From a virus: a DNA stretch of 64,000 nucleotides. Under the pieces are notes generated by a model that saw nothing but the letters and a program-made list of their open reading frames with translations, had not been told where the DNA came from and did not search any database. The stretch lies in the IMG/VR virus record IMGVR_UViG_3300008113_000071, positions 34,434 through 98,433 of that record; one strand, written 5' to 3'. Each line of letters starts with the position of its first letter. Positions within the stretch are counted from its first letter, which is position 1. This document shows positions 1-56,179 of the stretch, piece after piece. Both the position numbers and the translations under genes were made by a program.

Positions 1-3000
1 GAGGATGGAGAGCTGAATGGATTGATCCATCAGGAGTAAGTCAAACTACTTATATAAATGGATGGCCTACTTATGAAAGTAGAATAATTAATGTTAAATT
101 TGGAACTGTTCCTGCTTGTATAGAATATTGTGATCGTTGTGGAATAGTAATAGAATTTTTATATAAAGTGACTGCTTCAACAGATTGTAAAGTAGAAGTT
201 CCACAACCACCAATCACATCTGATCCAGAAGGAAAATACAGACAGATATTTAACTCACCTGAAACATCATTTGGTCAACCATTCTTAGGAGATGTTCTTA
301 AGTTAGAAAGTGTAATTTTTGGTAAAGGATTGGGTCACTTTGTTCAAGTTAAAAGTAATGCTAAGTATAAACTATTAACAGAAGAGGCTCAACAAGATGC
401 ATTAAACTCATCTAGAGAATTAGGAGATTTAACACCTGATTTTAATGCAGGAGCAATGTTTGCTGCATATCAAGCTTATTTAACTATCTATACAAATGGT
501 ATCACAAGAAAGAATTATGCATACTCATTTAATTCTATTGCTGATTACAATTATACAAATGGTGTTCCAAATGATTTAGGAGTTAAACAAAGAGAACTTG
601 ACATTGCTCAATATTTAATTCCTGGAGTTCAATCTGTTGGAAATGATGATCTAAATATTAATAACTTCCAAAGAGAATCTTCAGTGTTCTTAAGAACTGT
701 TGGATCAGATGGTTCTATAGCTTCTCTACCTTTCCCAGATAGAAGTCCATATATGTTAGAAGGTAGTGCTAGTATTATTACAGATAATTCTAGATTTACC
801 ATCTCAGAAATTGGTAATTGTGCAACTCCTGCAAAAGAAGTACCAATTCAGGTGGTATCTTATTATGCATCTGTAAAAAATATATTTATTAATCAATGGG
901 GACAAATTTATTCTTATGATACAATTGATACTGGATTTCAGTATGTATTAGGAAGTAATGAAAGTTTAATAGCCACTGTATTTGGTGGTGATACTTTCAT
1001 CAGTAGATTTGCATTTAAAACTAAACTTCCTTTCTTCATTGATAATAGAGTTAATGCTCCTGATGATTCAGATGTATTCTATGATGAGATTGGTAATATT
1101 GCATATCCTAAATACTGGCATTCAGCTAGATCTATTTTACAAGATTATAGTTGTGATACAGGAGGAACATTACCAACTGTTCTCTCAAATATTATTTCAT
1201 ACAAAGCACACAACTTTGATTGTCCAAATAGTCAAGCATTAGCTCCTGGTGCAGCAGCTGATAGTAATCCTAATAGAACATTCTATGATGGATACTTTTA
1301 TTTGTTTGCATATGGAATCCCTAACTTCTATTGTGAAACATCTTATAACGTAGATCTTCGTCAAGCATTTAATAATAAAGAAGGTGACTTCTGGCCTCAT
1401 GTAAGTACAAGTATTCCTGATGATTGGGTTCAAGAAGATTATGTATCTATCAATTTTGATAATACCTATTATTACAATGTTACCTTCTCTAAACAAAATA
1501 AAGAAAATTTCTTTAGTCACTTACCTATAGATTATACTATAGATTTATGTGCTACTAATTTCCCATTTAGAGCAATCTATTCTGAAGCACAAACAGCTGA
1601 TGCTGATAACACTGTAAACAATTGGTTAATATATAGAGCTGTATCTAAATTTGATTTTCCTCAGAACTATGGTAAGCTTACATCTTTAGATGGTATTCAG
1701 AATAAAGCTACATTAGCTAGATTTGAGAATAAGTCTTTATTGTATGGTACATTATTAACAATTAATACAAGTAATCCACAAGCTGCATATCTTGGAAATC
1801 CATCATTATTTGAGTCTGCTCCTCCTGTTGATTTTGCAGAAACTGATCTTGGTTTTGTTGGTTCTCAAAATAAAATGTTATTAAAGATTCCTCAAGGGCA
1901 AATAAGTATTGATGCTAAAAGAGGTCAAGTTTTCTTAATTCAAGGAACCCAAGTTAAAGATATTTCTCAGTTTGGTTCTGGTATGAACAGGTTCTTTACA
2001 GAACATTTAGCATTTGAGATTCTTAAATACTTCCCAGAAGTAGATACAGATAACCATTTTACTGGTATTGGATTACATGGAACATTTGATAGTAAGTATG
2101 ATAGAGTGTTGATCACTAAACTTGACTATGTTCCTAAAACAAAAGATGTTAAATATGATCCTGTAACTAAAGAGTTTTATATTGAACACATCTATCCAGG
2201 AAACTGTGGTGGTAATACAACAACTACAACTTCTAGTTCTACTAGTACAAGTAGTTCTACAAGTACCACTACAAGTACTACAACATCAGGTGGTGGTCCA
2301 ACTACAACTACCACAACCACTACAGTTACTTGTAATGAATACGAACTTCCTGGTGGTGAAACAGGATATACATACAATTTTACTAATTGTTTAGGAAATC
2401 CTCAAACTGTTGTAGTTCCTGCTGGAGATCAATATGGAGAATGTGCTTTAGGTTTCCCTGGTGGCCCAGCAATATTAGTTGGTCCTTGTACACCAACTAC
2501 AACAACCACTACAACATCTATTCCTGACATAAGTTGTTTCACATTAACTTACTTAAGTCCTTATGGTGCACCTACAACTTGCTTAGGTGAAGAGTTAGAG
2601 ATATTTGGTGGATATTATAGAATTGCATATACTGGTGGACCTTATGTTACTGCAGATGTAACTATAACATATGATATAACTAATGTTGATGGTTGTGATA
2701 GTTCAACAACTTATACAACTGGATCTCAAACAATCACTGCATTTACATCATATGTAGACTTTTTATTTATAGAGTCAACTCCTCAAGATTGTCCTCCTGA
2801 CACTCCTTGTAGAACTTACGTTTCATCAATAGGAGCAATTGTTGGTTCAAGTATACCTTGTTCTGAATTTACAACAACCACTACTACTACCACTCTTGTT
2901 TCTCCACCAATGATGTTTAATAGTATTTCAGAAGGGGCTCCTAGATTGTTAACAGTTCAAACAACTACAACTTGTCCTCCAATTATTATTAGAGAAGTTG

Positions 3001-5087
3001 TTTATCTTACTGATTTAAATTACTTCTGTAATAAATCTTGGAGTTTATCTTACAACTTAAATACAAACAGCTGGATTAGTTTCCACAGTTACATTCCTAA
3101 TTTCTATGTAGCTGAAAACAATTTCTTCTATTCAGGATTAAATGATTGCTGTTCTGTAATTGATGCTATTGTTGCTGAGGTGTTACCTGAACCAACTACT
3201 ACTAGTACAACAACTTCTAGTACAACAACCACATCTAGTACATCTACAACATCTACAACCACTACAAGATTTGCTGGTTGTGATTTAGCAGGTGAAGCAG
3301 AAACTCTTGATTGTACTTTACAAGGTGTTGCTATTGATATTACACCAACAACTACTACAACAACAACAGTTCGTCCTGAGATTGCTGCAGTACTTCTATT
3401 TGTAGATGAAGAATTACTTTGTAGTGCAGATAATACAACAACTCCTACAGCAATTATCTACTTGCCAGTTACATCTCCTTGGTTTGTATTAAATGGATCT
3501 AGTGAGTTAGTACTTGATAACACATGTCCAATTTCTTCATTCCTAAGTGAATATGTAATTACACCTGCATCATTTGCTAGTTACACTGTAAGTTCTCAAT
3601 CTGTTTCTACTGATCCTCCATTATATATTGAGAATATAAATTTTGTTGTAAATGAAGCAAGTTTATTAGATTCAGCAAGTGAAAACATTATAGTAACAGT
3701 AGTTAGTGGTCTTGCATCAGCTATAGGTTGTCCATGTCCTACAACTACAACAACAACTAGTAGCACCAGTAGTAGTACCACTACAACAACCACTACAGCA
3801 ATTCCAAGCATGTCTTGGGTGATGGGAAATGGTGGAACTGGAAGTGGTAGCAGTGGAGCTGCTTGTGGAACATCTATTGGTGGCCCATTATTATATTCAG
3901 GAATCCCTTACACAGGAACTGGTAGCATATTCTATACAGATGCTTCATTAACCACTCCATTTAATGGAGGTAGTTTATGGTATAAACTTTATAATACTGC
4001 TGGTGGATATGAAGTGATTGTACAAATTAATTCTTCTGGTGTAGTGATAGATAGTACTGGTTGTACAACAACTACTACTACCACAGGTGCACCAACAACC
4101 ACCACAACTACCACTCTACAAATAGTAGATTTATGTTGCTCAATTGATGGATCTCCAGAATCAGCATGCTTTACACAAGCAGCATTTTCAGGAGAAACAT
4201 GTGCTGATTTTGGTTACTTTGATTGCACCACTCCAGGTGGATGTGATCCAACCACCACTACCACCACTACAACTGCAACTCCTACAACAACCACTACAAC
4301 TAGCAGCACAAGCACAACTACCACTACAACTACAACATTAGCACCAATAGAGTTATGTTGTTCAATTGATCCATCTCCAGAGACACCATGTTTTACACAA
4401 GGTGCAACAGTAGGACAAAGTTGTTCTGATTTTGGGTATTTTGATTGTACTAATCCAAGTGGTTGTACACCACCATTTACAACAACAACTACTACCACTA
4501 CTATTGGTTTTGATTATTATCTAGCAGATAGATATACATGTGATGGTTGTACAGTTAATAGTGCATCAACTGGAGTTTGTTTTCCAACAGGTACTAGTGT
4601 AACTATTGGTAAGTTTTATGATTCTTCATCTTATTATGGATTGTATACTTATCAAATTACTGCATTAAATCCAGGTGGTACAGGTATGGATGTCATATTA
4701 GAACCACTTGAATATAATACATGTTTATTAGGTTGTGTAATAGATCCACCACCAACAACAACAACTACCACAACTGTAGCTCCTACAACAACAACTACAA
4801 CTACAGCAGGACCTACAACCACAACAACTACAACTGTTGCACCTACAACCACAACAACAACTACAACATGTCTTCCTGCAGGAACATTTATAAATCAATT
4901 CTGTGTAGATTGTGCATTATATTATACTTTAGCAAATGGAACTTGTGGTACATATGATGAACTTCAATCAATTGATTCATCTGAATGTGGACCAGGTTGT
5001 GGACCAACTCCAGGAGTATGTTGTGATTGTGGATATGGATGTGAGTGTGGGTATATAACATGTGATTTTGGATGTTTCCCTTGCTAA
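1..5087 (+). CDS. Large tail/muzzle-type structural protein with poly-Thr-linked Cys-rich knobs (5' partial)
   Basis: The reading frame is open from base 3 with no stop, so the gene starts before the window; the GTG at 168 is internal and about 1694 residues are visible. The first ~735 residues form one long globular region. Its end (around 2040-2150, with a GIGLHGTFDSKYDR-like stretch) reminds me of the stabilisation/muzzle proteins of crAss-like phages; this is from memory, not a search. From about base 2210 on, the protein is a chain of at least ten poly-Thr or Thr/Ser linkers separating small Cys-rich modules of roughly 25-110 residues. Two modules (4132-4245 and 4354-4466) are near-duplicates. 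The tail end is very Cys/Gly-rich. I infer a virion surface protein whose C-terminal half carries many small binding knobs or sugar-acceptor linkers. The virion role is fairly sure; the exact part is not. Confidence 0.6.
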   Translation, partial: GWRAEWIDPSGVSQTTYINGWPTYESRIINVKFGTVPACIEYCDRCGIVIEFLYKVTASTDCKVEVPQPPITSDPEGKYRQIFNSPETSFGQPFLGDVLKLESVIFGKGLGHFVQVKSNAKYKLLTEEAQQDALNSSRELGDLTPDFNAGAMFAAYQAYLTIYTNGITRKNYAYSFNSIADYNYTNGVPNDLGVKQRELDIAQYLIPGVQSVGNDDLNINNFQRESSVFLRTVGSDGSIASLPFPDRSPYMLEGSASIITDNSRFTISEIGNCATPAKEVPIQVVSYYASVKNIFINQWGQIYSYDTIDTGFQYVLGSNESLIATVFGGDTFISRFAFKTKLPFFIDNRVNAPDDSDVFYDEIGNIAYPKYWHSARSILQDYSCDTGGTLPTVLSNIISYKAHNFDCPNSQALAPGAAADSNPNRTFYDGYFYLFAYGIPNFYCETSYNVDLRQAFNNKEGDFWPHVSTSIPDDWVQEDYVSINFDNTYYYNVTFSKQNKENFFSHLPIDYTIDLCATNFPFRAIYSEAQTADADNTVNNWLIYRAVSKFDFPQNYGKLTSLDGIQNKATLARFENKSLLYGTLLTINTSNPQAAYLGNPSLFESAPPVDFAETDLGFVGSQNKMLLKIPQGQISIDAKRGQVFLIQGTQVKDISQFGSGMNRFFTEHLAFEILKYFPEVDTDNHFTGIGLHGTFDSKYDRVLITKLDYVPKTKDVKYDPVTKEFYIEHIYPGNCGGNTTTTTSSSTSTSSSTSTTTSTTTSGGGPTTTTTTTTVTCNEYELPGGETGYTYNFTNCLGNPQTVVVPAGDQYGECALGFPGGPAILVGPCTPTTTTTTTSIPDISCFTLTYLSPYGAPTTCLGEELEIFGGYYRIAYTGGPYVTADVTITYDITNVDGCDSSTTYTTGSQTITAFTSYVDFLFIESTPQDCPPDTPCRTYVSSIGAIVGSSIPCSEFTTTTTTTTLVSPPMMFNSISEGAPRLLTVQTTTTCPPIIIREVVYLTDLNYFCNKSWSLSYNLNTNSWISFHSYIPNFYVAENNFFYSGLNDCCSVIDAIVAEVLPEPTTTSTTTSSTTTTSSTSTTSTTTTRFAGCDLAGEAETLDCTLQGVAIDITPTTTTTTTVRPEIAAVLLFVDEELLCSADNTTTPTAIIYLPVTSPWFVLNGSSELVLDNTCPISSFLSEYVITPASFASYTVSSQSVSTDPPLYIENINFVVNEASLLDSASENIIVTVVSGLASAIGCPCPTTTTTTSSTSSSTTTTTTTAIPSMSWVMGNGGTGSGSSGAACGTSIGGPLLYSGIPYTGTGSIFYTDASLTTPFNGGSLWYKLYNTAGGYEVIVQINSSGVVIDSTGCTTTTTTTGAPTTTTTTTLQIVDLCCSIDGSPESACFTQAAFSGETCADFGYFDCTTPGGCDPTTTTTTTTATPTTTTTTSSTSTTTTTTTTLAPIELCCSIDPSPETPCFTQGATVGQSCSDFGYFDCTNPSGCTPPFTTTTTTTTIGFDYYLADRYTCDGCTVNSASTGVCFPTGTSVTIGKFYDSSSYYGLYTYQITALNPGGTGMDVILEPLEYNTCLLGCVIDPPPTTTTTTTVAPTTTTTTTAGPTTTTTTTVAPTTTTTTTTCLPAGTFINQFCVDCALYYTLANGTCGTYDELQSIDSSECGPGCGPTPGVCCDCGYGCECGYITCDFGCFPC
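2213..4868 (+). repeat. Array of poly-threonine (ACN)n linkers inside the first gene
   Basis: Threonine tracts of 6 to about 12 residues, some mixed with serine, recur at roughly 2213-2325, 2494-2518, 2869-2893, 3199-3270, 3346-3369, 3739-3798, 4066-4113, 4249-4338, 4480-4503 and 4750-4868. ACA, ACT and ACC codons are intermixed, so the repetition lies mainly in the protein and is imperfect in the DNA. The tracts separate Cys-rich modules and look like extended, possibly O-glycosylated spacers. Confidence 0.85.
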
Positions 5088-31968: not shown

Positions 31969-31976
31969 TAAATTTG
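31969..31976 (+). promoter_or_regulatory. TAnnTTTG promoter element giving a near-leaderless message
   Basis: TAAATTTG lies 6 bases before the ATG at 31983. No good TTTG box is visible 19-20 bases upstream. It follows a 57-base gap after the giant-protein genes and would start the fibre operon. Confidence 0.5.
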
Positions 31977-31982
31977 TATATT

Positions 31983-32624
31983 ATGAGAACTGCTGCTATA
32001 TGCCCCACCTGTGCCACGTATGAGAACGCTATCTGCGTCCTTTATGATGGACCCTACTTACCCTGTACAGGGATAAGTCCATTAGATTCTATTGCTGAAG
32101 CCTTAGCTAAAATTGATGCTGCTATTTGTGCACTTGGTGGAACAACCACCACTAGTACAACTAGTACAACAACAACAGCTGGACCAACAACAACCACCAC
32201 TACTACAATAGCTGGACCAACTACTACCACTACAACTAGTGTTGCACCTACAACAACAACCACTACAACAGCTGCACCTACCACAACTACTACCACCACC
32301 ACTTTAAACTGTGTGTATCCTACATTGGATGAGTTAACAACTGATGGATTTGGTAATATGACCTTAACCTATGATCTTCATGGTTCTACATGTTCAGGTG
32401 TATTTGTAGAATATTCTAGTGATCCTGCCTTTCCTGACCCTGTCTCTGGTCAAATTATTTTTAATGGTTGTAATCTAACATCATATGTGTTATATGTACC
32501 TTCTGAAACTACTCTTTATGTAAGGGTGTCTACAACATGTGGTCAACTTTCACTTATAAGTGATGCACTATCAATTATACCAGGTGTTCCTGCAACAACA
32601 ACAACCACTACTACACTTCCTTAA
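31983..32624 (+). CDS. Short fibre/bristle protein: anchor module, poly-Thr linker, C-terminal domain
   Basis: Start taken at the ATG at 31983, because the upstream in-frame TTG lies inside the promoter box. The product has 213 residues. Residues 1-52 form a Cys-containing module (C-x2-C... then V-L-Y-D-G and KIDAAI) that is clearly related to the start of the next gene. Then come about 50 residues of poly-Thr blocks separated by AGP/AAP/VAP, a beta-rich domain of about 90 residues and a last TTTTTTT tail. I infer a virion surface appendage in which the first module docks on the virion and the Thr stalk displays the head. Confidence 0.6.
   Translation: MRTAAICPTCATYENAICVLYDGPYLPCTGISPLDSIAEALAKIDAAICALGGTTTTSTTSTTTTAGPTTTTTTTIAGPTTTTTTSVAPTTTTTTTAAPTTTTTTTTLNCVYPTLDELTTDGFGNMTLTYDLHGSTCSGVFVEYSSDPAFPDPVSGQIIFNGCNLTSYVLYVPSETTLYVRVSTTCGQLSLISDALSIIPGVPATTTTTTTLP
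32140..32304 (+). repeat. Poly-threonine tract
   Basis: Four to five blocks of 6-8 threonine codons (ACA/ACT/ACC mixed), separated by AGP, VAP or AAP. A further Thr tract ends the gene at about 32593-32618. Confidence 0.85.
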
Positions 32625-37383: not shown

Positions 37384-39483
37384 TTAACCTATCATTTCAG
37401 AATTAATTTTATCTATAACCATTTGTGATGTAATACTAGTCTGACATTCAAATTGTCTATCAGTTCCTTTATTAACAGGACACCAATTCCAATCTCCCCT
37501 ATCAAACTTATACTGAGGATCATTCCAACATCCATGACATACACTTGTGTTCGTCACTCTAATGCATTCAAACTCGTGATCTGCTTGAGTAAAATTGCTT
37601 ATCATCACAACTTCTTTTCTAAGTGCCCAAGCTAACCAGCTTAACCCACTAGATAAGCCTACAAAGAACTTACTATAATAGATAAGGTTCATTGTATTCT
37701 CTATCGACTTATCCTCTGGCACTAGACAGTTATCAAATGGGTTATCCTCTAATGATACATTCACTATCTTATATCCTTTCTTGTGATAATGATTGATTAA
37801 CTCCTGCCACGACTCTCTTGTCCAGAACTTACATCCTGCAGTTGAATTGGTGGCTATGGTGATGTAATTATCGTATGGCCTCTTACTTGGACTGAAACTG
37901 ATTCTAGGAACGACTTCCCGATATTGGAGTCCCAAAATGTTTGTGGCTGCTTTCTGTAATGGAATAGTGTTAGGTAGCTCTGGTTCCTTATTGCTATCAT
38001 AGAACCATCCTAAAGTGTACATACCCATAATGTTCTGCACATTAGTTCCTGGTTCTACAAACTCTAATTCTGGATACACATCCTGGAATAAGTTATTCCT
38101 GAAGGTAGATACTATTACATGGCAATTGTGTTTCTGCTTGAACTCCAAACAATAAGGTATCCACGCTATTGTGTCTCCCAAGGACTTGCTGTCAAACGCA
38201 ATGTATACACGCTTTCCTGTGTAGTCTAACGTGCTTTCATACACAAGCTCATCATTCTCTCTTACAGTTACATTCCATTTGGTGTAATAGCTCCTGTTGA
38301 GTCTCACCCAACTGTTACACGCAATATTGTTCTGGTAATGTAGCTCTCCAGACTCATCATAAAACCTCACATTAAAAATGCTTTCTGAGCTCCCTTTGAT
38401 TTCTAAGAAGGGTTGTCCTACGCAATAGTTGGTGATTGTTATAGGCTGCTTGTATGGTGCAGCTTTGCACACAGCTCTGTACATTTCGTCATGCAATTTT
38501 GCAAATTCCTCTTCTTGCCCTTCAGGTATTTCATATTGCATAGGTTCATCAAGAGCTTTTATTAATTGAGCCTTTAGATTGTTTTCGTCTATTGGTGTAA
38601 TGTATTCATCAAACATTCCACAGTATTGTGGTAGGTTGCGTGCTAATATTTTACAGCCATAACTAACAGCTTCTCTAACAACAAGAGGATTACATTCCCA
38701 TGTGCTATTGAACATGAATACATCTGAAGCTAACATAAACTTCCACGCATCCTCTCTCTCTCCCCACACCTTACAATTAGCTGGTAGGTCTGCCATGATT
38801 GGTTCCCAATATTCTTGGAAGTTAACAGCTTGGTTTCCTACAAAATGGAATTGTACATCAGGCATTCTTCTAGCTATTTCTACAGCTTCTTTCTGATTCT
38901 TTCCTGGTGTCCATAGTCCAACGTTTACAACATGTTCTTTGGCTTCATCAAATTCTAATTCTGTAAATGCATCCTGCCAATTATATGTCTGACGTTTGTC
39001 TTCAATTGGAAACTCCAATACATATTTAGGAGATTGCATGTTAGCAAATGTCTGCAAATGATATGGTGTACAGAAAGCATATGCATCTGGATGATAACGT
39101 TTGCTCTGGTCTGGATTAAACCAAACATTGTGACAGGTTTCTACTATTCTCCAAGTTCTGTCTGGTGCATACAAAGCTCTCATCAGCTCCTCAGGAACTT
39201 GATTGTGGCTATCGAATCCTTCAATCATTTCATCAACATGCACAACATCAATATGCAAATCTTGAATGACATCTATTAACATCATCTTGTCTGTTCCAAG
39301 TGTAATCACTTGTGTTAGCTTGTTAATCTTGTTCTTCTGAACAACATACTCAGAGCTATAGTTCTTGAACTCCACTACATATACATCAGCATCTGTGTAC
39401 TTCTGTAGTGTCTCAATTCTCTTTAGTAAAAATGCAGGCATCCCTCCTGTCGAAAGATGTGGGGCTAAGAATAGTATTTTCAT
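37384..39483 (-). CDS. Bifunctional glycosyltransferase: GT4-like domain fused to Aah/TibC-like O-heptosyltransferase
   Basis: Start set at the ATG at 39481-39483 (699 residues). It begins MKILFLAPHLSTGG, typical of GT-B enzymes, and lies 5 bases after a promoter box. Residues 1-380 look GT4-like, with an NVGLWTPGKNQ motif followed by a W-E-C-N-P-L-V-V-R-E-A segment. Residues from about 445 begin KRVYIAFDSKSLGDTIAW, as in heptosyltransferases (GT9-like). The tail has Cys649, Cys652, Cys668 and Cys680 in a CHGCWND...DWNWCP...FEC context, the hallmark of autotransporter O-heptosyltransferases (Aah/TibC), which bind iron there and modify Ser residues. I infer protein O-glycosylation with extension by the first domain. 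It lies on the opposite strand directly after the Thr/Ser-rich fibre genes. Confidence 0.8.
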   Translation of the reverse strand: MKILFLAPHLSTGGMPAFLLKRIETLQKYTDADVYVVEFKNYSSEYVVQKNKINKLTQVITLGTDKMMLIDVIQDLHIDVVHVDEMIEGFDSHNQVPEELMRALYAPDRTWRIVETCHNVWFNPDQSKRYHPDAYAFCTPYHLQTFANMQSPKYVLEFPIEDKRQTYNWQDAFTELEFDEAKEHVVNVGLWTPGKNQKEAVEIARRMPDVQFHFVGNQAVNFQEYWEPIMADLPANCKVWGEREDAWKFMLASDVFMFNSTWECNPLVVREAVSYGCKILARNLPQYCGMFDEYITPIDENNLKAQLIKALDEPMQYEIPEGQEEEFAKLHDEMYRAVCKAAPYKQPITITNYCVGQPFLEIKGSSESIFNVRFYDESGELHYQNNIACNSWVRLNRSYYTKWNVTVRENDELVYESTLDYTGKRVYIAFDSKSLGDTIAWIPYCLEFKQKHNCHVIVSTFRNNLFQDVYPELEFVEPGTNVQNIMGMYTLGWFYDSNKEPELPNTIPLQKAATNILGLQYREVVPRISFSPSKRPYDNYITIATNSTAGCKFWTRESWQELINHYHKKGYKIVNVSLEDNPFDNCLVPEDKSIENTMNLIYYSKFFVGLSSGLSWLAWALRKEVVMISNFTQADHEFECIRVTNTSVCHGCWNDPQYKFDRGDWNWCPVNKGTDRQFECQTSITSQMVIDKINSEMIG

Positions 39484-39488
39484 ATAGA

Positions 39489-39519
39489 CAAATGTAAAAA
39501 AACATTTGCAAATCTCAAA
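39489..39519 (-). promoter_or_regulatory. Bacteroidota-type promoter for the glycosyltransferase
   Basis: Read on the minus strand: TTTG (39516-39519), a 19-base spacer, then TACATTTG (39489-39496), a full match to the consensus. The start codon at 39481-39483 is only 5 bases further, so the message should be leaderless or nearly so. Confidence 0.8.
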
Positions 39520-39536
39520 ACTATTAATTACATTTG
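39505..39536 (+). promoter_or_regulatory. Divergent Bacteroidota-type promoter for the envelope cassette
   Basis: TTTG at 39505-39508, a 20-base spacer, then TACATTTG at 39529-39536. It interleaves with the minus-strand promoter at 39489-39519. The first clear gene downstream starts at 39649, leaving a leader of about 105 bases. Confidence 0.7.
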
Positions 39537-39648
39537 TATGCAGAACTGACCACAGGTACAACCAACTACCTAACGCTACTAGTTCTTTGTAGCAATAGTT
39601 CATGTATTATTATTGTAATTATAATTTTTTTCTTAGAATTAATAGCAA

Positions 39649-44505: not shown

Positions 44506-45218
44506 TGAAATACCTATTAACTAGTATATTACTAGTTCTTTCCTTTACATTATCAGCTCAAGTAGCCTCTGTGAAAACAGAGAGCTACAAGGCTGATTTT
44601 GAAAAGAAGGAAGACTTTAGTGCATTGTTTGATTATTCAGGCAAGACTATTCCTGTTCAGATCCTTTCCTTAGGAATCTCTGAAGAGGTGTATGCTATGT
44701 ATCCTGAGTTAAAAGACAAACGTGTTGGGCTTGGTGTAACTAACATCGTTATTGAGTTCCTTGAGGAATCAAATAGATTTACGTTCACTGAAGAGAAAGC
44801 TGAGATTAAAAACAGAATGGTTAAACAATTCCAGGCTTCTAAGGCTGGCATCTCAGAAAACCAACTGGATGGTAAGGGCAAGATTAAGCTTGCTAATTAC
44901 TTTGTTTACATCGAAGTGTATGATTTTTCTGTATCTGTTGATGAGGAAATCAGAGTGAAGGATGGAATAAAAGAAACAATGGTTACTAGACTTGGCTTAC
45001 AGGTTAGATTTGTTAATGCTGAAACTGGTGAGTATTTAACTGGTTCAGGATTGGGCGAAGCTAAAACTGTTAAAGAAGCTACATTAATGAATGATGAGAA
45101 CTTGAGTGAAATCAAATTCAATCAATCAACCATTGGTACCACAACTAAGAAAGCGTTAGAGATTGCTGCTGGAAAGATTGTACAACGTATGATCAAAAAA
45201 GGCATCTTTCCTAACTAA
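44505..45218 (+). CDS. CsgG-like outer-membrane secretion protein
   Basis: A 237-residue protein with a signal peptide (about 1-19, ending SAQ). The mature part follows the CsgG order: GLGVTNIVIEFLEES early, a basic helix with Gln, ANYFVYIEVYDFS in the middle, LQVRFVNAETGEYL, then ALEIAAGKIVQRM near the end. CsgG forms the outer-membrane pore that exports curli. This copy lacks the N-terminal lipid Cys, so any pore would be unlipidated. It is coupled by TAATG overlaps to both the endolysin-like gene and the following barrel gene, so it may act in lysis, export or exclusion. Confidence 0.6.
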   Translation: MKYLLTSILLVLSFTLSAQVASVKTESYKADFEKKEDFSALFDYSGKTIPVQILSLGISEEVYAMYPELKDKRVGLGVTNIVIEFLEESNRFTFTEEKAEIKNRMVKQFQASKAGISENQLDGKGKIKLANYFVYIEVYDFSVSVDEEIRVKDGIKETMVTRLGLQVRFVNAETGEYLTGSGLGEAKTVKEATLMNDENLSEIKFNQSTIGTTTKKALEIAAGKIVQRMIKKGIFPN

Positions 45219-46531
45219 TGAAAAGACTATTACTACTATTATTTATATTGATTGGGACTAGTGCAAAGGCACAAGTTCTTACAACTACATTTGTTGATCC
45301 CTGTACCAAGGAAGTAAAACTAATCACAGTTCCTCTTGTAGGAAGTACAACTGTTGCACTCTATAATAAGACTAAAACATTTACAGCTGCTGATGTTACA
45401 TCTGGTGCTTTGTATCAGTGGATAGCTGATGCCTATCTTGCATGGAGTTCTAGAAACCCATGTTCAACTGGTCAAGCTGCAACCACAGCTACACAAGTGG
45501 CTGCTAATACAGTGAGTTCTGTTGTTGCTGGAGCTATAAGTGTTCCTCCTCCACCACCTCCTCCTGTAGCTCCTCCACCTCCTGCACCTGGTCCAGCACC
45601 TGCTAATTCTCCTCCTCCTCCTCCACAAGGGGGTGGTGATCCTCCTCCTGCTAATGGTGGAGGTGGTAGTGAACAAGGTCCTGCTCCTAAGAGTGAATCA
45701 AAGTCTGAATCAAAGTCTGAAGGTGGTGGTGAAAGTTCTTCTTCAGGAGAATCTAAGTCAGAATCCAAGAGTGAATCTAAGAGCTCATCAAAGAGTTCTA
45801 AGTCTGATAGTAAAGCAAAAGCTAAGGCTGCTGCTAAAGCTGCAAAGGTTGCTAACCCAATGTTGTTAGCTAGTGACTTAACAGCTGGACAAAACTTAGA
45901 TGGATCTATACAAGCTATTGCTTCATTTGGTTTATCACAATCCTCTATGGCTGGAGATGAATCCTGGGGAGTAACATCAATGATTTGGACAAACTTGAAT
46001 CAGTTTGCATTCAATGGTAGATATACCAAGATGGGTTTTGTTGATGGGAAACTTAAATATATAAACAACTTCTCTTACACCTGGGCTTATAGCTATGGTA
46101 CAAAGATGGGAGTGTTGGGATTTGCACACATTAGACCATTAGATAAATGGGGTGTGACTGGCTTTAACCTATCACAAATTGTGATTGGTATTCCTCATCA
46201 GTTTGGTGTAGATACATTAGGTGAGGCTGTGTATGTTAATCAATCAGCACTGCTTTATTCAATTACAGCATTCTACACTAAACCAATAACACTATCTAAA
46301 AGGATCAACATATCTCCAGAGATGTACATAACATGTAATCCATATATGTACCTCACTAGAGACCACTTACCAATAAGGGATTATACATTAAACTTCCTTT
46401 CAGGAGTGAGTGGAGATGTATCAATAACTAAAAGATTTAAATTAAGCACTAGCCTAAAAGCTAGTTTTAGTACAAATAAACAAATACCAATTCTATTCAA
46501 CGTCCTTATAGGATCTAAAATCAATCTTTAA
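45218..46531 (+). CDS. Secreted protein with Pro-rich and Ser/Lys linkers and C-terminal outer-membrane barrel
   Basis: A 437-residue protein with a signal peptide (about 1-19), a ~90-residue globular part and a Pro-rich stretch (about 108-148). A highly charged Ser/Lys/Glu linker follows (about 155-205), then ~230 residues of alternating aromatic beta strands ending in a hydrophobic terminal strand, as in outer-membrane barrels. The Pro-rich and charged linkers could cross the periplasm and wall. It is translationally coupled to the CsgG-like gene. I infer an outer-membrane partner of that protein or an outer-membrane disruptor. No specific family recognised. Confidence 0.6.
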   Translation: MKRLLLLLFILIGTSAKAQVLTTTFVDPCTKEVKLITVPLVGSTTVALYNKTKTFTAADVTSGALYQWIADAYLAWSSRNPCSTGQAATTATQVAANTVSSVVAGAISVPPPPPPPVAPPPPAPGPAPANSPPPPPQGGGDPPPANGGGGSEQGPAPKSESKSESKSEGGGESSSSGESKSESKSESKSSSKSSKSDSKAKAKAAAKAAKVANPMLLASDLTAGQNLDGSIQAIASFGLSQSSMAGDESWGVTSMIWTNLNQFAFNGRYTKMGFVDGKLKYINNFSYTWAYSYGTKMGVLGFAHIRPLDKWGVTGFNLSQIVIGIPHQFGVDTLGEAVYVNQSALLYSITAFYTKPITLSKRINISPEMYITCNPYMYLTRDHLPIRDYTLNFLSGVSGDVSITKRFKLSTSLKASFSTNKQIPILFNVLIGSKINL

Positions 46532-46759: not shown

Positions 46760-48097
46760 ATGAGTATACCTAATCGTCAAATAGGCTGGAGTCAGGAATC
46801 TAATCTCCTTTGGGGGATATGGAATGACCTATCTAAGGTTAGTAGAGCTGTGAACTGTTGTACTACAGGAAGTTCTACTAATCCTGATAATGTTATATTG
46901 CCTTCTGTAAACTATGATTCTTTTGGTAGACTTAGAGTTTCTGAACCTTTTACACTTTTTGATTCTAGTCATAGATACGATGATAACAATCTTTGGTCTA
47001 CAGCTACTGCTACAGGTGGAACTGCTGTATTTAATGGAGATCAAGGATTAATAGACTTAAATGTTACAGCAGCATCTGGATCTTCTGTTGTAAGAGAAAC
47101 AACAAAAGTGTTCTCTTACCAGCCTGGTAAATCACTTCTTGTTATGAATACATTTGTTATGTCTTCTGCTAAAACAGGACTTACACAACGTATTGGATAT
47201 TATAGTGATGATAATGGATTCTATTTAGAACAAGAAGATAATGCTGTAGCTTTTGTAGAAAGAAGTGTAGTAACTGGTTCTTTAGTAGAAACACCTATTT
47301 TACAGGCTGACTGGAATGGAGATAAGTTAGATGGATCTGGTCCTTCACGTATTACACTTGATCTTACTAAAGCCCAAATACTTTGGATGGATCTTGAGTG
47401 GTTAGGAGTGGGATCTGTGCGTGTTGGATTTGTGATAAATGGACAATTTATTGTTTGCCACACATTCCATCATGCAAACATTATTGCTAGTACATATATT
47501 ACAACTGCATCCTTACCATTACGTTACGAGATTGAGAATACAGCTGAAACATCTGGAGCTAGTACATTAAAACAAATTTGTTCTACAGTGATCTCTGAAG
47601 GTGGATATCAACTTGCAGGATTACAACAATCTGCTGGTACAGCTATTACAGCTGCGAGAACTTTTGCTGTTGCTGGTACATACTATCCAATCGTATCCAT
47701 ACGATTAAAATCTACAAGACTTGATGCTATTGTTATTGTAACAGCTATTTCTCTTTTAGGAATAGGTAATGGTAAAAGTTATCAATGGAGAGTAGTGGCT
47801 TCTGCTACAACTACTGGAGGATTATGGGTAGATGCAGGAGTTAATTCTGCTGTAGAGTATAATCTAACTGGATCTAGTGTATCAGGAGGAAGAATCTTAG
47901 CTAGTGGGTATGTTAACTCATCTAATCAAGGATCTCCATCAATTAATATACTAAAAGAAGCTTTGTTTGCCAATCAATTAGAAAGAAATGCATTAACAGG
48001 AACACCTTATGAAGTTTCAATAGAGGTGGCTGTAGCAACAACATCTGGTGGTGAAGGTGCTTATGCATCAATAGATTGGGAAGAAGTAAGTAGATAA
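46760..48097 (+). CDS. Virion structural protein with NRQIGWS anchor module
   Basis: Start set at the ATG at 46760 rather than 46730, because the promoter box lies between them and MSIPNRQIGWS matches the start of the next gene. 445 residues. The first ~25 residues form the anchor module. The rest is beta-rich, with a SFGRLRVSEPFTLFDSSHRY stretch (about residues 52-71) of a kind seen in minor structural proteins of several phages. I infer a virion decoration or appendage protein. Confidence 0.65.
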   Translation: MSIPNRQIGWSQESNLLWGIWNDLSKVSRAVNCCTTGSSTNPDNVILPSVNYDSFGRLRVSEPFTLFDSSHRYDDNNLWSTATATGGTAVFNGDQGLIDLNVTAASGSSVVRETTKVFSYQPGKSLLVMNTFVMSSAKTGLTQRIGYYSDDNGFYLEQEDNAVAFVERSVVTGSLVETPILQADWNGDKLDGSGPSRITLDLTKAQILWMDLEWLGVGSVRVGFVINGQFIVCHTFHHANIIASTYITTASLPLRYEIENTAETSGASTLKQICSTVISEGGYQLAGLQQSAGTAITAARTFAVAGTYYPIVSIRLKSTRLDAIVIVTAISLLGIGNGKSYQWRVVASATTTGGLWVDAGVNSAVEYNLTGSSVSGGRILASGYVNSSNQGSPSINILKEALFANQLERNALTGTPYEVSIEVAVATTSGGEGAYASIDWEEVSR

Positions 48098-48116: not shown

Positions 48117-48257
48117 ATGGCAATTCCAAACAGACAAATAGGATGGAGCACAACAGATAACTTGTTGTGGCAGATTAGTAAGCAATTAGAGCAACTTATT
48201 AAAGTTACTTATGCTAATACAACTACTACCACCACAACCACTACTGCTGCTCCTTAA
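48117..48257 (+). CDS. Mini-protein: NRQIGWS anchor plus bare poly-Thr tail
   Basis: A 46-residue protein. Residues 2-20 repeat the NRQIGWS...NLLW-x-I anchor of the preceding gene. A short helix follows, then nine consecutive threonines and a terminal AAP. No head domain follows the linker. If the anchor docks on the virion, this protein would display only a Thr stalk, a natural acceptor for sugars. The gene lies between the anchor paralogue and a glycosyltransferase gene. Confidence 0.65.
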   Translation: MAIPNRQIGWSTTDNLLWQISKQLEQLIKVTYANTTTTTTTTTAAP

Positions 48258-48287
48258 TAAAATTAAAACCAACAAACAACTACATAT

Positions 48288-49313
48288 ATGAAGAGAGAAC
48301 TCAGATTTATCTGTGCTCAACCAGATGATACCTACTACACATGGCAGGTACATTTATGGCTTGAAAGCTTAAAAAAGCTTGGACACTCAGACAAAGCAAC
48401 CATCCTAGTTTACACTCCTGGATTCAGAGAGAAGAATACTAAGTGGGATCAGATTGTAAACCTCTATCCTGAATCAGAATTTGTATTCTATAAGGATGAA
48501 GAAAACGCAATTACAAACTATCTAGGGATTTACATTCCCATATTAAGACCTTATTGTCTTACTAGATACTTTAGTGATAACCCTGATATGCAGGACAAAG
48601 CTGTGTTCTATTGTGACTCAGATGTTATCTTCACAGAGAATTTTAACGTTGATAAATACATCGATGATGATGTAAACTATCTGTCTGATACAAACAGTTA
48701 CATAAACGCTTCATATTTTGATAGTAAAGAACGAGATGTTCTTCCAGATAGACTGGATAGGTACAAAGAGAGAGATATTCTTGGTGAGTTAGCTGAGAAG
48801 ATTGGAATCTCTAGAGAGATAGCTGAAGCTAATAACGAACATTCTGGAGGAGCACAATATCTCCTTAAGAACGTTAATGCTGAGTTCTGGAGTAGAGTGA
48901 CTACAAGTTGTATCATTATACGTACAGAATTACAAGCTGTTAATAAAGAGTTCTTCGAAAGTGAGAACGCAGGTTTCCAAAGCTGGTGTGCAGATATGTG
49001 GGCTGTGTTATGGAACCTATGGAGAAACGAAGCTGAAACTAGAAACATTCCTGAACTAGAGTTCTCTTGGAGCTCTGATCAGATTGATAAACTAAAAAGA
49101 ACAGGCATCTTACACAATGCAGGGATCACAGATCAAAATATGGGTGGAGCTTATCCAGCTTTCTATAAAGGAAGCTACCATATGGGTAAAGACCCTTTTG
49201 AGGATCCTCATTTACAAGTGGTGTTGAATAGTGAGATCACTAAGAAATACTGCAACCACTATTATGCATCTCAATTAATGGAATTAAAAGAGAAGTATAA
49301 TCTTAATTATTAA
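48288..49313 (+). CDS. GT-A type glycosyltransferase
   Basis: A 341-residue soluble protein. The opening (RFICAQPDDTYYTWQVHLWLESLKK) and the acidic motif Y-C-D110-S-D112-V-I-F fit a GT-A, metal-dependent transferase. The early YxxWQ string recalls plant peptidyl-serine and hydroxyproline glycosyltransferases, but only as a weak resemblance. It lies among three genes with poly-Thr tails (48117, 49408, 49641), which makes those tails its most obvious candidate substrates. The substrate sugar cannot be read from the sequence. Confidence 0.65.
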   Translation: MKRELRFICAQPDDTYYTWQVHLWLESLKKLGHSDKATILVYTPGFREKNTKWDQIVNLYPESEFVFYKDEENAITNYLGIYIPILRPYCLTRYFSDNPDMQDKAVFYCDSDVIFTENFNVDKYIDDDVNYLSDTNSYINASYFDSKERDVLPDRLDRYKERDILGELAEKIGISREIAEANNEHSGGAQYLLKNVNAEFWSRVTTSCIIIRTELQAVNKEFFESENAGFQSWCADMWAVLWNLWRNEAETRNIPELEFSWSSDQIDKLKRTGILHNAGITDQNMGGAYPAFYKGSYHMGKDPFEDPHLQVVLNSEITKKYCNHYYASQLMELKEKYNLNY

Positions 49314-49407
49314 TATGAATAAAGATTTTGTAGCCTAGTTGCTAGAAGTCTTGCTTAATTTATATACATAAAGAAAATTTTTATTCACAATTTAAAACAA
49401 ATTTAAA

Positions 49408-49629
49408 ATGGCAAATGGTAATAACAGTCGTCCTTTAAAAGCTTATGTGCGTTTTGATGGATCAGGACGTGTAGTAGCTGGTAGCTTAATCTTGAGAAAG
49501 AATAAGCCAAAGGTTGGTAAATGGCAAGAAATTAATGCATATGAATGCTGCAATTATATCCCTACTACTACTACAACTACTACAGCAGCTCCCACCACCA
49601 CCACCACTACTACTACAGTAGGGGGTTAA
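49408..49629 (+). CDS. Mini-protein: LKAYVR anchor plus bare poly-Thr tail
   Basis: A 73-residue protein. Residues 1-50 form a small beta module (MANGNN, LKAYVRFDGSGRVV, then ECCNY). A TTTTTTT-AAP-TTTTTTTT tail follows and the protein ends in VGG. The first 50 residues closely match the next gene. There is no head domain, so it looks like an anchor with a naked Thr stalk. The ~95 bases upstream contain no clear TAnnTTTG box. Confidence 0.65.
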   Translation: MANGNNSRPLKAYVRFDGSGRVVAGSLILRKNKPKVGKWQEINAYECCNYIPTTTTTTTAAPTTTTTTTTVGG

Positions 49630-49640
49630 TTCGAACAGTT

Positions 49641-50039
49641 ATGGCAAATGGAAATAATAAAAGATTAAAAGCTTATGTACGCTATGATGGTACAGGGCGA
49701 GTTGTACCCAGCAGTTTGATTCTTCAAAGATTTAAACCTAAAGATGGTAACTATCAAGAGATTGATGCGTATGAGTGTTGTAACTATGTAGCACCAACAA
49801 CTACATCTACAACAACTACTGCAGCACCTGAATGTTTTTGTTATCAAGTAGATAATCAAACAGTAGGACTACTTGATTTCACATATACAGATTGTGGTAG
49901 TGAAGTACCTACATCTACATCTATTGCAGCAGATACAATTACATATGTATGTTCTTCTACAGCTGTAACAGGAGATGATGGACTTATTATTACTGGTGGA
50001 ACTGTTTCTTGTAACAATGCAGAAGGTTGTGTATCATAA
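49641..50039 (+). CDS. Bristle protein: LKAYVR anchor, Thr linker, Cys-rich head
   Basis: Start set at the ATG at 49641 by match to the previous gene (an earlier in-frame start would overlap it). 132 residues. The anchor (1-50) is nearly the same as its neighbour, followed by a short Thr/Ser linker and AAP, then a ~70-residue head with several Cys (CFCYQVDNQ... and CNNAEGC). The head is similar in style to the knobs at the end of the first gene of the window. I infer a virion surface protein. Confidence 0.65.
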   Translation: MANGNNKRLKAYVRYDGTGRVVPSSLILQRFKPKDGNYQEIDAYECCNYVAPTTTSTTTTAAPECFCYQVDNQTVGLLDFTYTDCGSEVPTSTSIAADTITYVCSSTAVTGDDGLIITGGTVSCNNAEGCVS

Positions 50040-50058: not shown

Positions 50059-50475
50059 ATGGCAATCAAATCCCTATTTCCAGAAGACATGATGAAATCA
50101 TCATCTTCTGAAGGCTTAACGTTAGAAAGTATAGCTGCAAAGCTTACTTACTTCCATGAGCAGTTACATTTATTGCACTGGCAAACTTCTAGTTATGCAG
50201 AGCACCAAGCTCTTGGTAGTCTTTATGATTATGTACATGACTTTAAAGATGGTGTTGTAGAGAAACTTATGGGTTACTTAGGTAAGCGTCCAGGAGTTTA
50301 TAAGATTGAACCTCTATCTGCAGCAAGTCCTATGGCAGTTGCAGAGAGTTTATGCATGTTTGCTTCTGATCTAAAAGCATATGGTGAAGCTAACAAGTTC
50401 CATGACATCTGTAATTTAGCAGACGCATTGTCTGGTGAAGCAGCTAAAACCAAATACTTACTGACACTAAGCTAA
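50059..50475 (+). CDS. Dps/ferritin-like protein
   Basis: A 138-residue helical protein. H37, H49, D64 and E68 reproduce the H-x11-H-x14-D-x3-E spacing of the Dps ferroxidase site, with the HW and LYD context of that family. It is slightly shorter than typical Dps. Dps proteins oxidise and store iron and bind DNA. In a virion-gene neighbourhood it may protect or pack DNA, or be a structural protein that reuses the fold. Similar genes occur in crAss-like phages to my knowledge. Confidence 0.65.
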   Translation: MAIKSLFPEDMMKSSSSEGLTLESIAAKLTYFHEQLHLLHWQTSSYAEHQALGSLYDYVHDFKDGVVEKLMGYLGKRPGVYKIEPLSAASPMAVAESLCMFASDLKAYGEANKFHDICNLADALSGEAAKTKYLLTLS

Positions 50476-54021: not shown

Positions 54022-54137
54022 TGTGTTCTTGGAAAAGAACCAAACGTTATAGAGATTTGATGTTTGCATTCTGGCTAATTAAAAATAAGAGATTAGTTAG
54101 TTCTTTTAAAGAAGCTATAAAAAAAGCCCAAGATTAA
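54018..54137 (+). CDS. Tiny hypothetical protein
   Basis: A 39-residue basic protein starting at ATGATG (54018) in overlap with the previous stop. Its last codons form one arm of a bidirectional terminator. It is the last plus-strand gene before the convergent minus-strand block. It is real only if the coupled start is used. Confidence 0.4.
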   Translation: MMCSWKRTKRYRDLMFAFWLIKNKRLVSSFKEAIKKAQD

Positions 54138-54155
54138 TTTCTCTGGGCTTTTTTT
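54119..54155. terminator. Bidirectional terminator between convergent operons
   Basis: AAAAAAAGCCCA (54119-54130) and TGGGCTTTTTTT (54144-54155) form a 12-base stem with a 13-base loop and T runs on both strands. It overlaps the 3' ends of the coding regions on both strands. Confidence 0.85.
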
Positions 54156-54712
54156 ATTACAAGCATTTTTCCACCATGCTTTTGTTCAACGCTCTCTATT
54201 TCAAAGTTGTTTTGAGTTATAATATTACTAACCTCTGGTATAGTGAATTGTGCATTTGAATACACACTGTGTAAATCTTCAATTATATAATACCCACCTG
54301 GATTAAGATGTGGAAATAGATGTTTGAAACTTGTAAGGATGTGTTCTGAGTAGTGTGAACCATCATCTAATATGATATCAAATTCTCCTCCATAGGTATT
54401 AATACACCTTTGTATATCCTCAGGATTGTTTTGATTACCAATGAATATGTTTATGTTTGGTTCTTCAAACTGTTTAGCTTGTTGATTAATATCATACCCA
54501 ACAAAAAATAAGTTTGGAAAATAATCCCTCCACATCTTTACACCAGCTCCTGGAAATCTTGGATCAGCTACACCAATCTCAAGCATTCTAATACTCTTAT
54601 CGACTAACTCTTCAAAGTATTCATTATATGTAGGAGTGTAGTTGTGACACCATGATTCAAAGTTACCTTTGTCTGTGCCCCATTTATTTGCTAACAGCGT
54701 CAATTTGTCCAT
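54134..54712 (-). CDS. Class I SAM-dependent methyltransferase
   Basis: A 192-residue protein. LEIGVAD (44-50) is the SAM-binding glycine loop, D74 in GYDIN a likely ribose-binding acid, and D112-I-I-L-D-D-G-S-H the following strand. The LANKWGTDKG start and MWRDYFP string are typical of the small-molecule or sugar O-methyltransferases related to macrocin/TylF-type enzymes. Placed directly after two glycosyltransferases (29-base overlap with the GT2 gene), it may methylate a sugar of the same glycan. Confidence 0.75.
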   Translation of the reverse strand: MDKLTLLANKWGTDKGNFESWCHNYTPTYNEYFEELVDKSIRMLEIGVADPRFPGAGVKMWRDYFPNLFFVGYDINQQAKQFEEPNINIFIGNQNNPEDIQRCINTYGGEFDIILDDGSHYSEHILTSFKHLFPHLNPGGYYIIEDLHSVYSNAQFTIPEVSNIITQNNFEIESVEQKHGGKMLVIKKAQRN

Positions 54713-55385
54713 AATAATCTTCTTTAAAATGTGGTTTAAGTTCTATCACTCCTGTTGTATTATCTAATATTCTATCAGCCTGTGCTAATACAACATCATT
54801 AGGTTGTACACCCATACCAGATATGTGTAAGGTTTGCATTCCCCATCTATATAACATTGTATGATTTAATTTAGACTCATAGATATTACCATTGTGTCCA
54901 AAGGTAATGTCTGCATCTTCTGTTCCTGATAGATCAGGGAATTTAATCCTGTCTAAATAGGCTTTGGTGTATACATTACCATTGTTAATATTGCTACTCT
55001 CGCTCTCAAACTTATTGTTCACAAAGAAATAGAATCCTTTGCTTCTATAAATTTCATGTCCTGGGTTGTTTGTAATATCAGAATAAACATTATCAAGAGC
55101 CCATGAAGCAAGTAAGTCATCATCATCTAATCGATAGATGTAATCATGTTTACATTGTTTATATCCCCACTCAAGCTTAGCAGCAATAGAAGGGAATCGT
55201 TCTTTGTGGTTAATAATTCTAACTTGTGGATGATCAAATACATAATCAACCTCAACGTTATCATTAATGATAACCATTTCTGTTGGTTCATCTTTAGGAA
55301 TTTTGTTTTCCTGTCTAAGAAAAGACTCAATCGCTTCTTCTAGAAGATGATGTCTTTTGTATGTTATTGTTAATACTGAAATCAT
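54684..55385 (-). CDS. GT2-family glycosyltransferase
   Basis: A 233-residue protein. It opens ISVLTITYKRHHLLEEAIESFL, with R-L-D-D-D-D (85-90) as the metal/nucleotide-sugar site, so it is a GT-A fold, family 2 enzyme. It overlaps the fucosyltransferase-like gene by 4 bases and the methyltransferase by 29, forming a three-gene sugar cassette. The target could be virion protein glycans or the host surface. Confidence 0.8.
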   Translation of the reverse strand: MISVLTITYKRHHLLEEAIESFLRQENKIPKDEPTEMVIINDNVEVDYVFDHPQVRIINHKERFPSIAAKLEWGYKQCKHDYIYRLDDDDLLASWALDNVYSDITNNPGHEIYRSKGFYFFVNNKFESESSNINNGNVYTKAYLDRIKFPDLSGTEDADITFGHNGNIYESKLNHTMLYRWGMQTLHISGMGVQPNDVVLAQADRILDNTTGVIELKPHFKEDYYGQIDAVSK

Positions 55386-56179
55386 GATGGTATTATAAAT
55401 CCATTTTCAAATCTTGTTGGTAATACTATCCAGTCCTTACAGTACATAGTATTCCATTTATGTGGGCACTCTGGACCAAACCAAGTTTCTGGAGCTACAA
55501 CAATCTTTCCAGGGTTTCTAGATAGATATGCAGCCCACCAACTAAAGGATGAATTAGAGATCACATAATGATGGCATAATGATAAGATCCATAACTGTTC
55601 ATGACTTTTATACCCCTCTAGGTAAGTTACATTAGGTAGTTGTAGATTCTCTTTACACCAAGGAATATCATCACTAGCAATTAGATAGTGTTCACTAGGA
55701 ATAAGTTCTAATGCTTTGTAAATGTATTGTGGTGTAACTGTAGGGTGGTAGTTAGGATAGTGAAGGTAATCACCTCTGCGTACATTGATAACTGTCACCT
55801 TCTTTTCAAAGATGACAGGTATCTCAGCACGAATCCTATTGATAAAGTCTAATGGTGCACCAAATAAGCTTTTGATGTTCTCACTATATTTATCAAAATA
55901 CTGTTCACTCTGGTAATATCCAAAGTAAACAGTGTGTTTATCATCTGATGGAACAGAACGATTGTAGTTCTTATTATCATCAAATGTATCTATAAACTCT
56001 AGTTTGCTACATATGTTTGTTGAATAATCATTTCCCTCATAGGCAAGTTGTGACTTGCAAACAACCACTTGTTTGTTAAACTCAAGACCCTTGGCATAGG
56101 CATGAGCTATCATGAAGAGATTGTTTCCAAGTCTACCACCTAATGAGGGAATAATATAATCAATGTTTAACATTACCAA
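55382..56179 (-). CDS. GT11-like (alpha-1,2-fucosyltransferase family) glycosyltransferase
   Basis: A 265-residue protein with GGRLGNNLF (14-22), V-R-R-G-D-Y (133-138) and ISNSSFSWWAAYL (about 210-222), the three marks of family GT11. Members move fucose from GDP-fucose to galactose. The start could be Met1 or Met3; the gene overlaps the GroES-like gene by 7 bases. It forms a cassette with the GT2 enzyme and methyltransferase. Confidence 0.8.
   Translation of the reverse strand: MVMLNIDYIIPSLGGRLGNNLFMIAHAYAKGLEFNKQVVVCKSQLAYEGNDYSTNICSKLEFIDTFDDNKNYNRSVPSDDKHTVYFGYYQSEQYFDKYSENIKSLFGAPLDFINRIRAEIPVIFEKKVTVINVRRGDYLHYPNYHPTVTPQYIYKALELIPSEHYLIASDDIPWCKENLQLPNVTYLEGYKSHEQLWILSLCHHYVISNSSFSWWAAYLSRNPGKIVVAPETWFGPECPHKWNTMYCKDWIVLPTRFENGFIIPS

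Follow-up and report, generated by a model that had tools for sequence, protein, structure and literature searches.

A phrog_4417 glycosyltransferase flanked by poly-threonine proteins: a probable virion O-glycosylation unit in phages

A small glycosyltransferase encoded between proteins that end in runs of threonine very probably forms, with these proteins, a dedicated unit for virion O-glycosylation in the phage of IMG/VR record IMGVR_UViG_3300008113_000071. The stretch of DNA that was analysed (the window) comprises 64,000 nt, from positions 34,434 to 98,433 of that record, and all coordinates given here refer to it. Since the same enzyme is found beside Thr-tagged coat and tail proteins in very different phages, it most likely adds sugars to virus particles. 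In a wider reading, which we consider moderately probable, an unannotated family of peptide O-glycosyltransferases and a poly-Thr sequon would make up a portable glycan-tag system across phages of several bacterial phyla, and large environmental phages would possess acceptor-only proteins, each a docking module with a bare Thr stalk, through which their virions acquire a mucin-like coat.

A sequence-only reading of the window had placed a GT-A gene between two poly-Thr mini-proteins, and the open reading frames agree with it in position (Table 1). Both mini-proteins have the Thr-ended C-termini attributed to them: the 46-residue product reads MAIPNRQIGWSTTDNLLWQISKQLEQLIKVTYAN-T9-AAP, and in the 73-residue product a 52-residue head precedes the two terminal Thr blocks, T7-AAP-T8-VGG. 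For the reading frame that ends at 50039, the internal ATG at 49641 is a better start, giving 132 aa, than the start of the longer frame at 49545, and the N-terminus of this protein is identical in type to the head of the 73-aa protein, module B being repeated. Two further window proteins, of 1639 aa and 216 aa, contain poly-Thr at a great distance from the enzyme; the sixteen Thr runs of the former separate domains, several of which are Cys-rich.

Table 1. The glycosyltransferase of the window and the proteins discussed with it.
Feature	Position	Strand	Characteristics
GT-A glycosyltransferase, phrog_4417, 341 aa	48288..49313	+	DxD = D110/D112, H276-N-A-G, K294
46-aa protein, proposed acceptor	48117..48257	+	module A (IPNRQIGW..LLWQISKQLE) and C-terminal T9-AAP stalk
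73-aa protein, proposed acceptor	49408..49629	+	module B (LKAYVRFDGSGRVVAGSLIL..KPKVGKWQEI) and T7-AAP-T8-VGG stalk
132-aa protein, possible acceptor	49641..50039	+	module B, T3-S-T4 linker, Cys-containing C-terminal domain
445-aa virion-type protein, phrog_1645	46760..48097	+	N-terminal module A, lectin-like beta-rich body, without Thr tract
216-aa Thr-rich protein	31974..32624	+	five T6-T8 runs; gene distant from enzyme; likely additional acceptor in trans
1639-aa virion structural protein, phrog_37948	168..5087	+	sixteen T6-T8 linkers; likely acceptor in trans

The Thr tracts are far from a matter of chance composition. Homopolymer runs of at least 6 residues number 25 in the 42 listed proteins of the window, and 24 of these are Thr runs, confined to four proteins, where only 0.0005 Thr runs of at least 7 residues would be expected by chance. 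Thr codons are freely mixed within the runs (adjacent identical codons 0.37, expectation 0.36), which places the selection on the protein and rules out an origin of the tracts as DNA microsatellites. Run length peaks at 7 in the group to which the window belongs and at 6-7 elsewhere, with xxP or other short spacers between runs. In 17 of 24 loci, the Thr-tagged C-termini of the capsid and tail proteins of one prophage agree in their last two residues, where shuffling leads one to expect 5.6 and never gave more than 11, as if the tags had been copied or were jointly constrained.

The enzyme itself matches phrog_4417 (E 1.4e-52; residues 6-324 against profile positions 2-287 of 293), a family annotated as of unknown function, and searches of Pfam, NCBIfam, and the PDB by sequence assigned it to no family. 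It does not belong to GT8 by profile, as Glyco_transf_8 (CAZy GT8) gave no match in 44 homologues at E 0.1. An AlphaFold model built from these 44 homologues has a mean pLDDT of 96.5, and its top match by VIA-align is glycogenin (Z 14.8, 4.0 Å over 234 residues), an enzyme that acts on a protein side chain, with LgtC, UGGT, and Skp1 alpha-galactosyltransferase ranking next. Glycogenin and other GT8/GT24 GT-A enzymes have the fold, the DxD, and an H..G..K-type motif in common with the phage enzyme, to which glycogenin is only 8% identical in sequence. Both aspartates of D110-S-D112 are invariant in the 44 sequences, in keeping with a GT-A fold with DxD, while H276-N-A-G and K294 vary hardly at all. 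From the model and these motifs the enzyme would be metal-dependent and nucleotide-sugar-using; its predicted fold is that of a soluble GT-A protein with neither a membrane segment nor a recognisable secretion signal.

A recurring order is found in 80 IMG/VR relatives, in which module A with a Thr tract lies upstream of the enzyme and module B with a Thr tract downstream. Bare Thr stalks make up 61 of the 107 module-A proteins at these loci and 73 of the 122 module-B proteins, while the others either combine Thr with a domain or have a domain or fibre but no Thr. A search with module B alone, a query lacking any Thr run, retrieved 80 loci, and the enzyme is present in 78; the two others are cut contigs, so that it occurs in 78/78 loci that reach its site. 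Module A also heads the 445-aa virion-type protein, whose beta-rich body sits on quite different N-termini in other phages. Its model, of modest confidence (pLDDT 71.6), has a helix at 12-32 and the lectin-like body; across L475-L554 and the window this body is conserved while an N-terminus of roughly 45 residues is exchanged between unrelated modules. The N-termini of the mini-proteins had earlier been taken for anchors; membrane anchors are ruled out because these N-termini are hydrophilic modules common to larger virion-type proteins nearby. As modules A and B occur on other virion-type bodies and swap, they are probably virion-docking modules.

Pairing of enzyme and tag extends to distant phages. 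A tblastn search with the enzyme matched 74 phage records, mostly from Lactobacillus, Enterococcus, Staphylococcus, and Lactococcus, and in phages of Firmicutes the enzyme often adjoins the major capsid and major tail proteins, which carry a C-terminal poly-Thr tag. In phiFL1A the capsid protein ends in ..TTTTTKPTTTTTKPTTTTTTTQG and the tail protein in ..TTTTTSTTTTTTSSTTTTTTTQASSK; in phage 1706 the capsid/protease ends in ..TTTTTTTTTHHD and the major structural protein in ..TTTTTTTTTTHHD. The same tag is thus borne by unrelated proteins, and the glycosyltransferase gene is linked to capsid and tail proteins with Thr/Ser-rich tails, a feature expected of phage systems for virion-protein glycosylation. 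A Thr-rich protein lies near the enzyme in all 16 distinct phages examined, the stretch being interrupted or internal, with no clean terminal run, in Levilactobacillus ENFP1, LP65, and Chryseobacterium MA9V-3. Conservation in relatives had been named as a check on the pairing, and it was kept: poly-Thr occurs within 3.5 kb of single-domain enzyme homologues in 24/25, 8/8, 25/27, and 30/36 de-replicated loci, and runs of T6 or longer reach a density of 1-4 per kb beside the enzyme versus 0-0.03 per kb beyond 4 kb.

No clear poly-Thr neighbour was found at the viral loci L181 and L182, both distant, and L067. Two other exceptions have Ser/Thr-rich neighbours. At L311 (4146-5988), a Lentilactobacillus prophage-like locus, two virion-type proteins that adjoin and precede the enzyme carry tags that are Ser/Thr-rich and not pure Thr, and these tags could be used to test a preference for Ser or Thr. 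At L306 (4057-7312), a Chitinophaga locus that is apparently a prophage, the enzyme has a Ser/Thr-rich neighbour; tandem enzyme copies of 272 and 343 aa are present, and a module-B-like protein is encoded together with the Ser/Thr-rich one. The association also has a direction. When viral contigs were scanned by pattern for poly-Thr ORFs, the enzyme was nearby for only 6 of 44, many contigs being short; with 38/44 lacking it, the enzyme predicts the tag but the tag does not predict the enzyme, and Thr tracts are not a signature unique to the enzyme.

Presence and absence were compared with two major-tail-protein cores as queries. The tail was removed from these, making the selection of loci blind to both enzyme and Thr trait; 159 and 251 genomes were searched and the surroundings fetched, giving 39 prophage loci. 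A poly-Thr protein is encoded in 15/15 enzyme-bearing loci, in 13 of them as the tail protein itself, and in 0/23 enzyme-free loci; the remaining locus (L387) ends ahead of the expected enzyme site. For the tail trait alone, with L387 counted against the hypothesis, a Fisher test gives p 1.7e-7, the loci being related and not independent samples. Six phages with homologous tail operons, in which the enzyme is absent across the whole records, have a Thr tail in 0/6. Trees of the two tail-protein families show 7 and 3 changes of state for the enzyme, and in paired comparisons the Thr trait in no case moves against it, though with only two independent pairs per tree on well-supported branches this comparison has no power by itself and counts as support, not proof.

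Homologues of the enzyme are also found in cellular genomes. Five such loci were examined (L262, L264, L268, L299, and L315); they hold single- and multi-domain copies, and their neighbours include C39-peptidase ABC transporters and LanC-like proteins, with a grasp-with-spasm ATP-grasp maturase at L264. Such proximity to RiPP maturation and export genes is a peptide-modification setting that fits a peptide acceptor, and the Bacteroidota chromosomal homologues near RiPP genes are candidate peptide glycosyltransferases. What sets the cellular copies apart from the phage ones is that many are longer and multi-domain (480-830 aa), with a poly-Thr neighbour in 0/17 of those on Bacteroidota chromosomes.

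Several other explanations of the locus can be weighed against these results. The Thr tracts might be plain, unglycosylated linkers or stalks, next to the enzyme merely through a common late structural cassette; Thr-rich linkers do occur in many proteins without the enzyme, and some tracts of the window lie far from it. Tail homologues in like cassettes, however, lack the tract when the enzyme is missing (0/23 and 0/6), a Thr tract on the tail protein or a Thr-rich neighbour accompanies the enzyme wherever it is present (15/15), and unrelated capsid and tail proteins bear the same tag, which leaves this explanation quite improbable. Virion proteins might be glycosylated with the phrog_4417 enzyme adding only a later sugar, another phage or host enzyme having initiated on Thr, and the GT4/GT9, GT2, and GT11 enzymes and a methyltransferase of the window, together with the frequency of GT2s in large relatives, lend this some weight. 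It is nevertheless judged unlikely, as GT2 is found in 0/6 Firmicutes phages that bear the enzyme and the other glycosyltransferases vary among relatives whereas this one is constant.

Receptor-modifying glycosyltransferases are carried by phages, and an enzyme of this kind could act on a host surface glycan or lipid in the manner of gtr-type genes, for receptor masking or superinfection exclusion, with the Thr proteins a separate matter. Other glycosyltransferases in the window, including a weak GtrB-like match, are compatible with such a role, but the gene stays within the structural cassette beside Thr-tagged virion proteins across phages of very different hosts, and the fold is predicted to be soluble without a membrane segment; we regard a host-surface target as very unlikely. 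Phage glycosyltransferases that act on modified DNA bases exist as well, and glycosylation of phage DNA or of a nucleotide precursor can be envisaged. With linkage to virion proteins and not to base-modification genes, and with RiPP peptide genes near the cellular homologues, its probability is close to negligible.

The reading that is preferred, virion O-glycosylation, treats the enzyme and the Thr-stalk proteins as one unit with Thr as putative acceptor, as had been proposed at the outset; adjacency, presence and absence, and the capsid and tail tags support it, as do a GT-A fold near that of a protein-glucosylating enzyme and cellular homologues beside RiPP genes. The narrower proposal that the two mini-proteins are the acceptors holds in part, in that they stay proposed acceptors, while the substrates are probably all poly-Thr virion proteins and not these two only. 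The small GT-A enzyme, encoded amid structural genes, would use a nucleotide sugar supplied by the host cell and move its sugar onto Thr of the poly-Thr tracts, typically runs of six or seven Thr that are set apart by xxP spacers or stand at the C-terminus. In the window phage such tracts are carried by two minimal proteins, each a probable docking module and a Thr stalk, and by the linkers of larger virion proteins; in phages of Firmicutes they form C-terminal tags on the major capsid protein, on small neighbouring proteins, and on the major tail protein. Through docking of the tagged proteins, the virus particle may gain a mucin-like coat, and the benefit could be shielding, adhesion to host or matrix, or stability.

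Virion glycosylation as a kind is already known. In PMC12363180, glycosyltransferases of mycobacteriophages are described as glycosylating capsid and tail tube proteins, by which the particles are shielded from antibody binding, and Che8, Corndog, and Myrna are such cases (Freeman et al., 2023, as cited in PMC12363180 and PMC13313380). A phage glycosyltransferase that acts on virion proteins would be common to that system and to the proposed unit of the window, in which the putative acceptor is distinguished as a tag of nearly pure poly-Thr that is carried in part by mini-proteins of its own. As regards homology to the mycobacteriophage glycosyltransferases (Che8 gp110, Corndog gp38), the 74 phage records that tblastn matched included no mycobacteriophage. 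The enzyme's own family is phrog_4417, or "prophage pi2 protein 34", and a literature search on poly-threonine phage proteins and pi2 protein 34 returned nothing linking the enzyme to Thr tags. Within the searchable literature, the association of the phrog_4417 enzyme with a tag of nearly pure Thr, and with mini-proteins that are acceptors only, thus appears to be new. A concrete substrate and function are thereby proposed for a phage family labelled "unknown", and phages with glycosylated coats might be predicted from sequence alone. If the proposal is true, sugar-coated virions would be far commoner than the handful of examples from mycobacteriophages suggests, and enzyme and tag, a minimal pair of about 300 aa plus T6-T9, could be put to use as a simple bacterial O-glycosylation tag.

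Further genes of the window bear on glycans or on the virion. A second glycan cluster at 54134-56179 (minus strand) encodes a GT11 enzyme (fucosyltransferase family), a GT2 enzyme, and a methyltransferase; GT11 is found in 2 and GT2 in 11 of 16 large records, and the cluster was set aside as a part of the unit, being variable among relatives, with GT2 missing from the six Firmicutes phages. A 739-aa protein (37384-39603, minus strand) joins GT4-type and GT9 (heptosyltransferase-type) domains. These other glycan genes may serve to lengthen or cap the chain begun by the first sugar, or they may have a role elsewhere. A 1445-aa fibre with long GTSGTSG collagen-like repeats is encoded at 32636-36973, and the middle part of a 437-aa protein (45218-46531) holds a P7 run together with Ser/Lys-rich repeats. 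The Thr cluster is followed immediately, at 50059-50475, by the gene for a 138-aa protein with matches to DUF5856 and to a PHROG of starvation-inducible (Dps-like) proteins, and a gene of this type occupies the same place in L067.
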